DNA of 64,000 bases from an uncultured Pelagibacteraceae bacterium (GTDB taxonomy: Bacteria > Pseudomonadota > Alphaproteobacteria > Pelagibacterales > Pelagibacteraceae), in the NCBI GenBank assembly GCA_902616675.1, contig CACMTV010000002.1, positions 83,146 through 147,145 on the forward strand, written 5' to 3'. Positions 36,772 through 42,717 of the stretch are shown in pieces; positions within the stretch are counted from its first letter, which is position 1, and each line of letters opens with the position of its first letter. The position numbers and the translations under genes were made by a program. The notes beneath the pieces were generated by a model. The model searched no databases and had not been told where the DNA came from. It saw only the letters and a list, made by a program, of their open reading frames with translations.

Positions 36772-37782
36772 ATGAGAAAAATAATATTAGCAGTTTCAGC
36801 ATTATTTTTTGTTTTTGGAAATCTTTTAGCGAACGAAGTAAATATATTTAGTGCAAGACATTACGATTCAGATGTTCAATTGTATGAAAAATTTACAGCT
36901 AAAACAGGTATAAAAGTAAATGTTGTATCAGGAAAATCAGGCGCATTAGAGAAAAGAATAATCGCAGAGGGCGGCACAGCAGACTTATATATAACAGCTG
37001 ATGCTGGTAGACTTGGTGCATTTGCAGCTAACTTACAAGGAGGCTTAACAAGTAACGAAATAAAGTCAGCAGTTCCGAGTAATTTTAGAACATCTAAATG
37101 GGTTGGAATAGCTAAAAGAGCAAGAATAGTTTATTTTGCTCCAGAGAGAGTTACAGGCGCAGAGTTAAGAGGCCTAACTTATGAAAGTTTAGCAGATCCT
37201 AAATGGAAAGGCAGATTAGTTATAAGAGCTTCTAACAATATTTATAACCAGTCACTCGTTGCTTCATTAATTAAAAATAATGGAAAAGGTAAAGTAGCAG
37301 AGTGGTCAAAAGGAATGGTTTCGAATATGGCTAGATCTCCAAAAGGTAATGACAGAGCACAGATTCTAGCAGTAGCTGCAGGAGAAGCCGATATTGCAGT
37401 AGCTAATACATATTACTTAGCTCTTATGTTATCAGGCAAAAAAGGTGCTGAGCAACAAGCTGCAGCTAAAAAAGTAAAACCTTTTTTTCCAAATCAAGGC
37501 GATAGAGGAACTCACATGAACATAAGTGGCGCAGGACTTGTTAAAGGCGCACCAAACAAAGATAATGCAATTAAGTTAGTTGAATTTTTACTAAGTAAAG
37601 AAGCACAAAAGCATATAGTAAATAATACTTATGAGTATCCGATGATTGCTGGGGTTTCACCCCATCCATTAGTGGTTAATATGGGTTTAGATTTTAAACA
37701 AGATTTAACAACTAAAGTCGTTAATTATGGCAATAGACAAGCAGATGCATTAGAAGTAATGACAGCTGCAGGTTGGAAATAA
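36772..37782 (+). CDS. fbpA: Iron(III) ABC transporter substrate-binding protein
   Basis: NIFSARHYDSDVQLYEKFTAKTGIKVNVVSGKSGAL, paired Tyr NTYY, FutA/FbpA family. Confidence 0.93.
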   Translation: MRKIILAVSALFFVFGNLLANEVNIFSARHYDSDVQLYEKFTAKTGIKVNVVSGKSGALEKRIIAEGGTADLYITADAGRLGAFAANLQGGLTSNEIKSAVPSNFRTSKWVGIAKRARIVYFAPERVTGAELRGLTYESLADPKWKGRLVIRASNNIYNQSLVASLIKNNGKGKVAEWSKGMVSNMARSPKGNDRAQILAVAAGEADIAVANTYYLALMLSGKKGAEQQAAAKKVKPFFPNQGDRGTHMNISGAGLVKGAPNKDNAIKLVEFLLSKEAQKHIVNNTYEYPMIAGVSPHPLVVNMGLDFKQDLTTKVVNYGNRQADALEVMTAAGWK

Positions 37783-37796
37783 TATTAAATATATAA

Positions 37797-39413
37797 ATGG
37801 CAAAGTATAACTTTTGGTTCTTTAGTTCCTTTTTAATTGCTCTAATTGTGGCTTTGCCAGTTATAACTGTATTCTTCAGTTTTTTTTCAGAAACTAGTAA
37901 TTACCTAACAATATTAAAGAATACATTTCTTTTTGACTATATAAATAATTCATTAATTATTTTAATTTTTGTTTTATCTATAACATTTTTATTAGGTGTA
38001 ATTTCAGCTTATTTCATATCATTTTACGAATTTCCGTTATGTAACTTTTTTAGTTGGGCTCTGATATTAGCATTTGCAGTGCCAGGTTACATTTTTGCAT
38101 TTTCAATTATTGCTTTTTTTGAAAATTATGGAACTGCTTATTCAATACTCACGAACATGTTTGGCGAATATAATTATAACCCTCATATACCAAAACTAGA
38201 TGGAATATTAGGATCAATTATAGCTATTAGTTTTTCCTTGTTTCCTTATGTATACGTTTTAACAAGATCATCATTTTTCTATCAATCAAACAACTATATA
38301 GAGGTAGGTCAAAACTTAGGTTTATCTGAAAGAGAAACTTTATTTAAAATAATTTTACCTTCTGCCAGACCAGCAATTATTGCAGGTTTAGCCTTAGTTG
38401 CTATGGAGTGTTTGTCCGATTTTGGAACAGTATCAATATTTAGCGTTTCAACTCTAACTACTGGAATATATAATTCTTGGTTATCTTTTGATGATTTAAA
38501 TTTAGCTAACCAAATTTCTTTTATTTTATTGCTGTTTGTTTTTCTACTGTTATCCATAGAAATTTATTCAAGGAAAGAGGCCAAATATCATCAACCTAGT
38601 AGAGGTTTTAAACCAATTAATAAAATTAAACTAAGTGGAAAAAAATCTTTGTTAGCTTTTTCTTTTTGTTTTTTATTATTTTTTATAAGTTTTATTTTTC
38701 CAGTTTCACAGATGATCTATTGGACTTTAAAATTTCCAAAATATATCCAAGACATTAATATTTTGAAAATAAATTTAAATACAATGTATTTGGTTGGTCT
38801 GGCTAGTATAGTATTAGTATTTATTTCATTATTTATTAATTATGGAAGTAGGATATCCAAAAGTAAAATTTTAAATTATTTAACCAATTTCTCAATTTCA
38901 GGGTATGCTATTCCGGGTGTGATTTTAGCTGTAGCCTTTATAACTTTATTTAGCAATTTTAGTGAATTAATGAGTGAAAATACAAGTTTAGGAAATATTA
39001 AAAAATTATTTATAGGATCAATTTTCGGTTTAGTTCTTGCATATTTTATTAGATTTTTTTCCCTTTCTTTTAATGGGATTAAATCAAGTTATGAGAAAAT
39101 AAATAATTCAATTGACGAAAGTGCGTACTTACTTGGGTATTCAAAAATTAAAACTTTTTCAAGCATTCATGTTCCGTATTTAAAAAACAACATAATCTTA
39201 ATAATTGTTCTAATTTCGCTGGAGATTATAAAAGAATTACCAATAACAATGATATTAAGACCTTTTAATTTTGAAACTTTTGCTACACAAGCATATATCT
39301 ATGCTTCTCAAGACTTATTAGAAGCTGCGGCATTACCTTCTTTATTTCTTATTAGTTGGGCAACTATCCTCATAATATTTTCTTCAAAATATATACTTTC
39401 GCAAAAAAACTAA
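37797..39413 (+). CDS. fbpB: Iron(III) ABC transporter permease (fused two-domain)
   Basis: 538 aa, ~12 TM segments, ALAFAVPGYIFAFSIIAFFENYGTAYS; EAA loops QNLGLSERETLFKIILPSARP and AYLLGYSKIKTFSSIHVPYLK. Confidence 0.92.
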   Translation: MAKYNFWFFSSFLIALIVALPVITVFFSFFSETSNYLTILKNTFLFDYINNSLIILIFVLSITFLLGVISAYFISFYEFPLCNFFSWALILAFAVPGYIFAFSIIAFFENYGTAYSILTNMFGEYNYNPHIPKLDGILGSIIAISFSLFPYVYVLTRSSFFYQSNNYIEVGQNLGLSERETLFKIILPSARPAIIAGLALVAMECLSDFGTVSIFSVSTLTTGIYNSWLSFDDLNLANQISFILLLFVFLLLSIEIYSRKEAKYHQPSRGFKPINKIKLSGKKSLLAFSFCFLLFFISFIFPVSQMIYWTLKFPKYIQDINILKINLNTMYLVGLASIVLVFISLFINYGSRISKSKILNYLTNFSISGYAIPGVILAVAFITLFSNFSELMSENTSLGNIKKLFIGSIFGLVLAYFIRFFSLSFNGIKSSYEKINNSIDESAYLLGYSKIKTFSSIHVPYLKNNIILIIVLISLEIIKELPITMILRPFNFETFATQAYIYASQDLLEAAALPSLFLISWATILIIFSSKYILSQKN

Positions 39414-39425
39414 TATAATCAAAAA

Positions 39426-40496
39426 ATGTCAAATCGATTTTTTGAAATTAAAGATGGCAATTTTGTTGCTAGTGAAAAAAACAAAGTTAACAATGTAAAC
39501 CTTAAAATAGAAGAGAAGGGTGAAATTGTTTCTTTATTGGGCCCATCTGGTGTTGGCAAAACAACAATACTTAGAACTATTGCTGGATTACAAAAACTAA
39601 GTGCTGGTGAAATTTATTTAAAAGATAAACTAATATCTTCTAATGAGGTTCATGTTGAACCAGAAAAAAGAAATATAGCCTTGTCATTTCAAGACAATTC
39701 ATTATTTCCAAATTATAAAGTAATTGACAATATTAATTTTGGAAAAAAAAGATCTAATGGTAACGGTTTTTCTTATGAAGCAGAGGACATTATAAAATTA
39801 CTTCATATTGAACCAATTTTAGAAAAATTTCCCCATCAAATAAGTGCTGGTGAAGCTCAACGAGTATCTTTAGCAAGATCATTAATGTCCAAGCCAGATT
39901 TATTATTACTGGATGAGCCTTTTTCAAATATTGATCAAAATTTAAAGGAAGAAATACAATATTCAGTAAAAAAACTATTAAAAAAAATTAATTTAACTAC
40001 AATAATTGTAACTCATGATTCCTATGAAGCATTTTCTCTAGCTGACAGATGTGGAATAATACTAAATCAAGAACTTAAACAATATGACATTCCGTATAAT
40101 GTTCATCATGAACCTAATTCATTAGAAGTTGCAAAATTTTTAAATAAAGGTGTTTTTGTTGATGTTAAAGTTGTAACTAATGATTGTGCCGTACATAGTT
40201 TACAACATAAAGAATTAGGAGAGATAAGAGGCAAGCTACTTAAGAATTATCCAAAAGGAGAAAGTGTTAAATTATTATTACAACCTGAAGATCTTGTTCA
40301 TGATGATCAAAGCAAACTTAAGCTTGAGGTAGTTGATAGAAAGTTCAGGGGCACAAACTTTATATACACTTTAAAAACTCAAAAGGGTGAACATATTCCA
40401 GTCTTTGTTCATTCCCACCATATTCATCAACACGAAAAATCAGAAAAGTTTGGTATCAAAACTCCTATTTTTATTGACCATTTAGTATGTTTCTAA
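39426..40496 (+). CDS. fbpC: Iron(III) ABC transporter ATP-binding protein
   Basis: LLGPSGVGKTTILRTIAGLQKLSAG, ISAGEAQRVSLARSLMSKPDLLLLDEPFSNID, C-terminal TOBE region with FVHSHHIHQH. Confidence 0.92.
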   Translation: MSNRFFEIKDGNFVASEKNKVNNVNLKIEEKGEIVSLLGPSGVGKTTILRTIAGLQKLSAGEIYLKDKLISSNEVHVEPEKRNIALSFQDNSLFPNYKVIDNINFGKKRSNGNGFSYEAEDIIKLLHIEPILEKFPHQISAGEAQRVSLARSLMSKPDLLLLDEPFSNIDQNLKEEIQYSVKKLLKKINLTTIIVTHDSYEAFSLADRCGIILNQELKQYDIPYNVHHEPNSLEVAKFLNKGVFVDVKVVTNDCAVHSLQHKELGEIRGKLLKNYPKGESVKLLLQPEDLVHDDQSKLKLEVVDRKFRGTNFIYTLKTQKGEHIPVFVHSHHIHQHEKSEKFGIKTPIFIDHLVCF

Positions 40497-40508: not shown

Positions 40509-41246
40509 ATGAAATTTTCATTAGAAATTACATCTAAAACAGATCTATCAGTTCTTCCTGGTCTGAAAGATGTTTATATCACGATGTTACCTGGTACAGA
40601 TTACAAGGAAGTAGCTAATAAAGCTGATGAACTAGTCAAATCTGGGTATAACCCAATTCCTCATTTCCCAGCGAGGTCAATAAAAGATTTAAATGAGTTA
40701 AAGGACTATGTAAAAATGTGTAAAGATTCTGGCGTAAAACAAGCTTTAGTAATTGGTGGAGGGAGAGAACCTGTAGGTGAATACCACTGCTCGTTGCAAT
40801 TACTTGAGACAGGATTATTTCAAGGGATGAAGATAGGAATTGCTGGACACCCTGAGGGTTCCCCTGATATATCCGATTCAGAATTAGAAAAAGCTATGAA
40901 AGAAAAAACTCCTCTTGCAGATTATATAGTAACGCAATGGCTTTTGGATCCATCAGTAATAGCTAATTTTATATCAAAACAAACTCTTCCAGTTCATGTT
41001 GGAATTACTGGTCCCTTAAAAATAAGCAGCTTATTGAAGTTTGCGAGTATTGTTGGGGCAAAAAATTCTATAAATTTTCTTAAATCTAATACGAGTAAAG
41101 CTTTAGATTTACTGAAGCCTAGAGACCCTAGCGAATTGATAAATAGCTTAAAGAAAGTAACAGAACACTTTCATATTTATACTTTTGGTGGTCTTAAGGA
41201 AACAAATAAATGGTTGGTAGCAAACAATTATGCCAAAGAAAAATAA
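40509..41246 (+). CDS. Methylenetetrahydrofolate reductase-like protein
   Basis: MTHFR-type TIM barrel motifs: HFPARSI, GGGREPVGEYHCSLQLLE, GIAGHPEGSPD, HVGITGPLKISSLLKFASIVG; 245 aa. Confidence 0.82.
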   Translation: MKFSLEITSKTDLSVLPGLKDVYITMLPGTDYKEVANKADELVKSGYNPIPHFPARSIKDLNELKDYVKMCKDSGVKQALVIGGGREPVGEYHCSLQLLETGLFQGMKIGIAGHPEGSPDISDSELEKAMKEKTPLADYIVTQWLLDPSVIANFISKQTLPVHVGITGPLKISSLLKFASIVGAKNSINFLKSNTSKALDLLKPRDPSELINSLKKVTEHFHIYTFGGLKETNKWLVANNYAKEK

Positions 41247-42639
41247 AAAAATAAAAAAAAATAAACCAAAGAAAAAATTCAAATTAATATCTTTAAAACC
41301 TGAAAAAGTTAATTATGACAAAGTCCGTCATGAAACTTCGGTTGATCAGTCTGATAGGCAAGTTCCTTATAATCTTAGACAAAGCGGACCAACTAAAGTT
41401 GAAATGTTAATTTCTACAAGAGTAAGAAAATCTCCTTATTGGCACTTGTCAATGAAAGCAGGTTGCTGGAGAGCTACTGTATACAATAGAATTTATCATC
41501 CAAGAGGTTACGTAAGACCTGAAAAGGGAGGAGCAATGGTTGAGTATGCAGCAATAAAAAACCACGTAACAATGTGGAACGTTGCTGTTGAAAGACAAAT
41601 AAGAGTTAAAGGACCAGATGCAGAAAAATTTGTTGATTATGTAATAACTAGAGACGCAACAAAAATCTCAACAATGAGAGGTCGTTATGTAATATTATGT
41701 AATTATAAAGGTGGGGTTTTAAATGATCCTGTATTATTAAGAGTTGCTGATGATGAATTTTGGTTTAGTTTATCAGACTCCGACATAGGTCTTTATTTAC
41801 AGGGAGTAAACGCAGATAAAAGGTTTAATGTTGAAATAGATGAAATTGATGCATGTCCAGTTCAAATTCAGGGTCCTAAATCAAAAGCTTTGATGAAAGA
41901 CTTAGCAGGTGATCAAGTTGATTTTGATAATATGCCTTTCTATGGTTTAGCTGAAGCAAAAATAGGTGGTCGTAGTTGTGTTATTTCTCAATCAGGTTTT
42001 TCTGGAGAAGCTGGTTATGAAATTTATTTAAGAAATGCTACTTTGTATGCTGAAGATATGTGGAATGCAGTTTTAAAAGCAGGAAAAAAACATAAGCTTA
42101 TGGTTATTGCACCTGCTCATCACAGACGTATCCAAGCTGGAATTCTTTCATGGGGACAAGATTTAGATCATGAAACTAATCCATTTCAATGTAATTTAGG
42201 TTATCAAGTTTCTTTATCTGGAAAAGGTGTATGGGAAAAGAAAACTGATTACATCGGCAAAGAAGCGTTAGAAAAAATGAGAGATCAATTAAGAAACGGA
42301 GATAAACCTTATAAGTTACAATTGGTTGGTTTAGAGCTCGGGGGCAAACCCATAGATGATTATGCTAATGATTTTTATTTAATTTCTAATAGCGATGGAG
42401 GTAAACCAGTTGGTTATGTAACATCTCCGTGGTACCATCCAGAAAAGGGAACAAATATAGCTATGGGATATGTTCCTTACGAAGGACATTTAAGTGCAAC
42501 AGGTTTTCCGATAGGTAATTTAGGTAAAAAATATAAGGTGCACTTACCAAAGAAATACTCAAGTAAAGCAGTAGATGCTGTTGTAGTTAAAATTCCATTT
42601 ACTCAGTCATTTAATGCTAATACTAGAGAAGTCTCTTAG
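41230..42639 (+). CDS. GcvT-family aminomethyltransferase/demethylase-like protein, substrate unknown
   Basis: AAIKNHVTMWNVAVERQIRVKGPDAEKFVDYVITRD, SQSGFSGEAGYEIYLRN; overlaps metF-like gene; Lys-rich N-terminus may reflect a start called too early. Confidence 0.87.
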   Translation: MPKKNKKIKKNKPKKKFKLISLKPEKVNYDKVRHETSVDQSDRQVPYNLRQSGPTKVEMLISTRVRKSPYWHLSMKAGCWRATVYNRIYHPRGYVRPEKGGAMVEYAAIKNHVTMWNVAVERQIRVKGPDAEKFVDYVITRDATKISTMRGRYVILCNYKGGVLNDPVLLRVADDEFWFSLSDSDIGLYLQGVNADKRFNVEIDEIDACPVQIQGPKSKALMKDLAGDQVDFDNMPFYGLAEAKIGGRSCVISQSGFSGEAGYEIYLRNATLYAEDMWNAVLKAGKKHKLMVIAPAHHRRIQAGILSWGQDLDHETNPFQCNLGYQVSLSGKGVWEKKTDYIGKEALEKMRDQLRNGDKPYKLQLVGLELGGKPIDDYANDFYLISNSDGGKPVGYVTSPWYHPEKGTNIAMGYVPYEGHLSATGFPIGNLGKKYKVHLPKKYSSKAVDAVVVKIPFTQSFNANTREVS

Positions 42640-42640
42640 A

Positions 42641-42717
42641 GCGCCCTTAGCTCAGTTGGATAGAGCATCGGTTTTCTAAACCGAGGGTCGTAGGTTCGAA
42701 TCCTTCAGGGCGCGCCA
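42641..42717 (+). tRNA. tRNA-Arg (UCU), CCA encoded
   Basis: Acceptor GCGCCCT/AGGGCGC, anticodon arm TCGGT-TTTCTAA-ACCGA, T-arm TAGGTTCGAATCCT, encoded CCA. Confidence 0.96.

Follow-up and report, generated by a model that had tools for sequence, protein, structure and literature searches.

A likely corrinoid-free glycine betaine:THF methyltransferase of the GcvT/DmdA superfamily, encoded beside MetF in SAR11 bacteria

A GcvT/DmdA-superfamily protein, here termed AMT, encoded next to a short MTHFR-like protein, MetF, in a SAR11 genome is likely to be a corrinoid-free glycine betaine:THF methyltransferase. Its family placement, its gene linkage, its co-occurrence with other genes and its mutual exclusion with the corrinoid methyltransferase MtgB are shown. 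The substrate, product and activity of AMT are inferred from these four lines, without biochemistry, and the direction in which MetF works is also an inference. On a bolder reading, which also appears likely though the activity is again inferred, AMT represents an unrecognised cobalamin-free type of enzyme common to SAR11 lineages, other Proteobacteria and haloarchaea, one that replaces MtgBCD beside the same dehydrogenase and supplies the first glycine betaine step without BHMT and MtgB. The window (the whole 64,000-nucleotide stretch of DNA that was analysed) is of SAR11 origin, because its AMT is 100% identical to a protein of the Pelagibacteraceae single-cell genome AG-903-M03. The features of the locus are as follows.

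40509..41246, + strand: MetF, 245 aa, a short MTHFR-like flavoprotein (by its match to PDB 7xg9 and its pairing with AMT)
41230..42639, + strand: AMT, 469 aa, a GcvT/DmdA-superfamily protein (GCV_T 140.7 bits, GCV_T_C 34 bits)
41230..41246, + strand: overlap of the MetF and AMT reading frames, 17 nt (from coordinates and sequence)
42641..42717, + strand: tRNA-Arg (TCT), beginning 2 nt past the AMT stop codon

Both open reading frames are full-length when compared with their orthologs, and the initial annotation, which had reported an overlapping pair of a 245-aa MetF-like and a 469-aa GcvT-family protein at 40509-42639, held in both coordinates and lengths. The 17-nt overlap is kept in most relatives and suggests translational coupling, an inference from sequence alone, and the tRNA gene that follows probably marks the end of a two-gene unit. 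MetF is directly upstream of AMT in all 79 of the Pelagibacterales loci that have room upstream, and it adjoins AMT also in families f32 and f17, in gammaproteobacteria and in haloarchaea, while the flanks of the pair vary between lineages. Genes for an iron-type ABC transporter (binding protein, permease and ATPase; window 36772-40496) lie upstream and stop 12 nt short of the start of MetF, an arrangement found in close relatives only. As clues to the substrate, this transporter and the downstream neighbours were dropped, not being conserved in relatives. Scanning the window and its counterparts in related loci for riboswitches gave tRNAs only.

The pair had been described before. Going by the published description, and without direct alignment, it corresponds to SAR11_1264/SAR11_1265 in Ca. 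Pelagibacter ubique HTCC1062, where a metF was reported beside an aminomethyltransferase that resembles DmdA and whose substrate was unknown (Sun et al. 2011, PMC3160333), and the initial annotation's claim of an uncharacterised C1 route is corrected to that extent. The same paper speculated that SAR11_1265 takes off the second methyl of DMSP; only in proposed function, glycine betaine here as against the second DMSP methyl in 2011, do the two accounts differ. For part of a time course under sulfur limitation, both genes have been listed with fold changes of about 0.1 to 0.2 relative to an exponential-phase control (PMC5069961). A search of the open-licence literature, outside which most subscription journals lie, gave no earlier proposal of a glycine betaine demethylase that is of the GcvT type and depends on THF.

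AMT is neither the housekeeping GcvT nor DmdA, as is evident from the tree, the NCBIfam scores and the presence of both of those proteins separately in the same genome. It passes the Pfam gathering scores for both GcvT domains (PF01571, 140.7 against 25.6; PF08669, 34 against 25.9). A maximum-likelihood tree was built from 75 domains of the GcvT superfamily. In it, AMT and 25 orthologs (26 rows) form a single clade with support of 100/98, whose sister comprises DmdA plus a DmdA-like group, AMT2. DmdA forms its own clade (100/100) with AMT not inside it, GcvT is separate from AMT (100/94), and dimethylglycine dehydrogenase and SoxA are also placed elsewhere. The best NCBIfam model for AMT is that of DmdA (NF009133), at 240.1 bits against an equivalog cut-off of 410; GcvT (TIGR00528) gives 141.3 against 235.85, and the TMAO demethylase Tdm (NF053776) 163.1, over the C-terminal part only, against 1100. 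LigM and DesA give 33.1 and 44.1 bits, with cut-offs of 580 (NF047885) and 800 (NF047633). Assignment as canonical GcvT, DmdA, LigM/DesA or Tdm was ruled out by these scores and the tree. Elsewhere the genome encodes a typical GcvT (G000:C4:5296-6033, 279.5 bits), a true DmdA (486.1 bits to NF009133 and 484 bits to 3tfh), and dimethylglycine dehydrogenase and SoxA.

AMT is a sharply bounded, slowly evolving family. In a sample of 385 alphaproteobacterial genomes, orthologs in 17 other genomes are 64-83% identical to the window AMT and one more is at 55%, beyond which the next group drops to about 40%. Gammaproteobacteria-like members, which belong to the same phylum, are 67-69% identical, and those on haloarchaeal plasmids 55-58%. 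Asp166 and Glu264, which match folate-site positions of GcvT and DmdA, are conserved, and family-specific invariants are found in the N-terminal extension and around His297. At the position of a DMSP-contacting Trp (W197 of 3tfh, which is taken here, from spacing, to be the 'W171' of PMC7487153) the window AMT has Phe257, and Phe is present in 25 of 26 AMTs. However, this position was dropped as a substrate discriminator since DmdA orthologs of the window's own genus carry Phe or Tyr there. These DmdA orthologs (L005:1408-2514, L191-L196) have Phe/Tyr at the position of P. ubique DmdA Trp197 and His at that of Tyr206, and a different substrate preference is possible for them. AlphaFold2, run on AMT with 21 Pelagibacterales orthologs, gave a pLDDT of 48 and hence no structural support for fold or pocket.

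The AMT2 group scores about 371 bits with the DmdA model, slightly short of its cut-off of 410, and does not form a single clade in the tree (members are L056-L065, L217 on Phaeobacter inhibens plasmid pP51_d, L165:10160-11296 and L183:2526-3683). Its Roseobacter-type cluster, Lrp-AMT2-OsmC-enoyl-CoA hydratase-acyl-CoA synthetase, mirrors the DMSP demethylation pathway; the substrate of AMT2 is unknown. Pelagibacter genome G037 encodes a BHMT-like 346-aa protein and, divergent from an AMT2 gene, a 308-aa protein of the homocysteine methyltransferase family (L184:1056-2096, L183:3768-4694).

The partner protein scores 16.9 bits against Pfam MTHFR, where the cut-off is 24. It matches PDB 7xg9, a 288-aa 5,10-methylene-THF reductase, nearly over its full length (residues 16-237, 4.5e-32). 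Short SAR11 MetF proteins fall under the Pfam cut-off, with the result that the family search gave no MetF in this genome, and routine annotation may possibly miss it for the same reason. An MTHFR subfamily that prefers 5-methyl-THF oxidation, for example in Sphingobium SYK-6, has coevolved with LigM and is the partner of a THF-dependent demethylase (PMC13001107). The 7xg9 protein is taken here to be of this oxidising type, though no paper naming 7xg9 was found. SAR11 lacks MetE, MetH and MtgBCDE (PMC12478193), so that the product of a MetF working reductively would have no evident use there in making methionine. MetF is thus proposed to oxidise 5-methyl-THF to 5,10-methylene-THF, with both the direction and the flavin-dependent activity inferred, in the absence of enzymology.

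With the tree and the solved relative of MetF in hand, the remaining claims of the initial annotation can be judged. That AMT is not in a gcvT-H-P context held, a typical GcvT being encoded elsewhere in the genome. THF-dependent demethylation followed by C1 processing is supported by the placement of AMT and by the solved relative of MetF. The suggested comparison with LigM/DesA held only in part, being functional, with weak sequence similarity (33-44 bits against 580-800). The phylogeny it had called for was run and places AMT apart from GcvT, in a separate clade that is sister to DmdA. Its reading was to fall if the protein lay inside a GcvT or DmdA clade in a genome with no other gcvT; this was checked and is not the case, as gcvT and dmdA are both encoded elsewhere. 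The view that the methyl donor could not be assigned is corrected, the donor being narrowed by inference to what is likely glycine betaine.

The neighbours of AMT orthologs point to a pathway. Recurring among them are a dimethylglycine-dehydrogenase-type flavoprotein of 810-824 aa (10 of 18 clustered loci), soxB, soxA, soxD, soxG, MetF and fhs. The dehydrogenase-type protein is within 12 kb of AMT in nine families (f77, f17, f142, f31, f66, f1, f32, f2 and f206), several with soxBDAG. Family f32 has the order soxB-soxD-soxA-soxG-dehydrogenase-MetF-AMT on one strand; in f17 soxGADB is divergent from AMT-MetF-fhs-dehydrogenase, in f77 AMT is flanked by the dehydrogenase and soxBDAG, and in f206 the dehydrogenase is near AMT-MetF-fhs. 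These neighbours cover oxidation of dimethylglycine through sarcosine to glycine and C1-THF, and the step they lack is the formation of dimethylglycine from glycine betaine. At each of the six haloarchaeal megaplasmid loci read, MetF is near AMT, and various of these loci also have dimethylglycine-oxidase-like flavoproteins, BCCT transporters, glyA, fhs, folD, dihydrofolate reductase, pab genes, formate dehydrogenase and threonine ammonia-lyase. The pairing of haloarchaeal dimethylglycine oxidase with a betaine transporter had been noted, and possible use of glycine betaine suggested, with no demethylase named (Anderson et al. 2011, PMC3102087). In Pelagibacterales the MetF-AMT pair is often not beside the dehydrogenase. 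The window genome has, on contig C4 and not on the contig of AMT, DMGDH-etfB-etfA-ETF:QO-MFS-soxG-soxA-soxD in a row (the etf and MFS names were assigned by sequence inspection).

Within the window's genus, all 10 AMT-positive genomes have the dehydrogenase and SoxA, whereas only 2 of 27 AMT-negative genomes, 60% and 72% complete, have that dehydrogenase. An intact PF02574 protein is present in none of the 10 AMT-positive genomes (one has an edge fragment) as against 20 of the 27 AMT-negative ones; most of the AMT-positive genomes also have DmdA. These genomes are 57-94% complete, and single absences mean little, but the pattern does count. The 352-aa type of PF02574 protein matches human BHMT (1.3e-45), whereas the 302-aa type does not. 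In the window's lineage no MtgB was found and, as far as could be seen, no BHMT (GbcAB-type monooxygenases were outside the survey). The lineage can nevertheless process dimethylglycine, which makes AMT the obvious candidate for the enzyme that forms it. BHMT-type proteins do co-occur with AMT in Pelagibacter (f2) and in some other AMT-positive genomes.

A further pattern is the mutual exclusion of AMT and MtgB (PF06253), which together with MtgC and MtgD forms the corrinoid methyltransferase that acts on glycine betaine in Ruegeria and other marine bacteria (PMC12478193). The survey for MtgB and the dehydrogenase covered the 385 alphaproteobacterial genomes, one even sample of one class, a close dehydrogenase being one of about 55% identity or more, with score cut-offs chosen by the author. 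A close dehydrogenase is present in 65 genomes; of these, 14 carry AMT alone, 49 MtgB alone, one both (its MtgB piece is at a contig end) and one neither (Fisher p = 3.6e-12). Exactly one of the two is thus present in 63 of 65, where the permutation maximum was 53 genomes. At the level of families the split is 9 with AMT alone, 26 with MtgB alone and 2 with both labels (p = 4e-7), and the exclusion is unchanged under looser or stricter thresholds. In 24 AMT-free genomes the same dehydrogenase has MtgB no more than 12 kb away, at a minimum of 67 bp. A dehydrogenase located 82 bp from MtgB shares 73% identity with that of the window genome, and family f30 includes a genome with AMT as well as another with MtgB. 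This pattern, DISPLACEMENT of the corrinoid enzyme, has the look of non-orthologous displacement at one metabolic step. Outside the set with a close dehydrogenase, the near-complete genome G361 is an exception, having AMT (C1:2809503) and three MtgB genes (C1:1918000, 1290494 and 3126823).

In the proposed mechanism AMT would bind glycine betaine and THF, and one methyl would be passed to N5 of THF in a redox-neutral, DmdA-like transfer, yielding dimethylglycine and 5-methyl-THF. MetF, with its flavin, would oxidise the latter to 5,10-methylene-THF, which may then feed FolD, Fhs and formate dehydrogenase. The genome also encodes, on a different contig, dimethylglycine dehydrogenase and SoxBDAG, which would take dimethylglycine on to glycine. 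Against the proposal, glycine betaine is a quaternary ammonium compound and a poorer leaving group than the sulfonium of DMSP. To our knowledge, no THF-dependent enzyme acting on glycine betaine has been described. Linkage and exclusion identify the pathway step but not the exact substrate, and it remains possible that another betaine is used.

One alternative is that AMT demethylates DMSP or the methylmercaptopropionate (MMPA) formed from it, the role suggested for SAR11_1265 in PMC3160333. In its favour are the sister relationship to the DmdA clade, the rank of DmdA as top NCBIfam model (240 bits) and the co-occurrence of DmdA in most AMT-positive genomes of the genus. However, the score of 240 is well short of 410 and a real DmdA is present in the same genome, no dmdB/C/D neighbours were seen around AMT, and haloarchaeal orthologs adjoin betaine transporters and dimethylglycine-oxidase-like proteins. 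A Pelagibacter acyl-CoA synthetase near the pair was rejected as DmdB, scoring 323 where the MMPA-CoA ligase cut-off is 822. MMPA, moreover, is a thioether and a much poorer methyl donor. On balance this alternative is unlikely. Also unlikely is action on some other N-methylated or quaternary ammonium compound entering the dimethylglycine/sarcosine route, or a role as a broad betaine demethylase. Linkage gives the pathway and not the exact substrate, BCCT transporters take several betaines, and the superfamily spans DMSP, TMAO and aryl ethers, but the complementarity of AMT and MtgB beside the same dehydrogenase most simply fits conversion of glycine betaine to dimethylglycine.

Least probable, indeed very unlikely, is a role for AMT as the T-protein of glycine cleavage, or as a folate subunit that traps formaldehyde for the dehydrogenases. 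The fold is the same, and Asp166 and Glu264 are at the GcvT/DmdA folate-site positions. Yet AMT is outside the GcvT clade and GcvT is separate in the genome, DMGDH and SoxA have GCV_T domains of their own, and a MetF partner implies 5-methyl-THF and not 5,10-methylene-THF as the product.

Glycine betaine is among the most abundant marine nitrogen osmolytes, and SAR11 bacteria are among its main consumers. A 2025 account ascribes its marine demethylation to corrinoid MtgBCD and, for SAR11, to Bhmt coupled to methionine synthesis (PMC12478193). If AMT is the glycine betaine:THF methyltransferase proposed here, SAR11 could draw energy from glycine betaine methyls independently of methionine need and of vitamin B12. 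The proposal would also account for lineages that can break down dimethylglycine and sarcosine although no enzyme for the first step is known in them, and would provide the missing demethylase for haloarchaea with dimethylglycine oxidase and betaine transporters (PMC3102087). It makes the function of SAR11_1265 directly testable.

Among characterised systems, the closest relative of AMT is DmdA (3tfh/3tfi/3tfj; SAR11_0246), with which it shares the three-domain GcvT fold, conserved folate-site positions and, as is assumed by analogy, redox-neutral methyl transfer to THF. It differs from DmdA in being in a separate clade at about 30% identity, in having an N-terminal extension with a conserved VDQSDR..P.NLRQSG, and in its proposed substrate being a quaternary ammonium compound. 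The LigM-MetF system of Sphingobium SYK-6 likewise combines a THF-dependent demethylase of the superfamily with an MTHFR that oxidises 5-methyl-THF, but LigM acts on aryl methyl ethers and its similarity to AMT is marginal (33 bits). The SAR11-type Bhmt takes the first methyl off glycine betaine, as AMT is proposed to do, but it has an unrelated fold, its acceptor is homocysteine and not THF, and AMT-positive genomes of the window's genus have no intact copy. MtgBCD of Ruegeria pomeroyi catalyses the net reaction proposed for AMT and shares with it the neighbouring dehydrogenase and a dedicated MetF (MetF2), though its proteins are unrelated (PF06253) and it requires cobalamin and several subunits where AMT is a single protein without a corrinoid domain. 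When Ruegeria grows on N-osmolytes it produces MetF2 together with MtgBCD, an arrangement that the AMT-MetF pair parallels.
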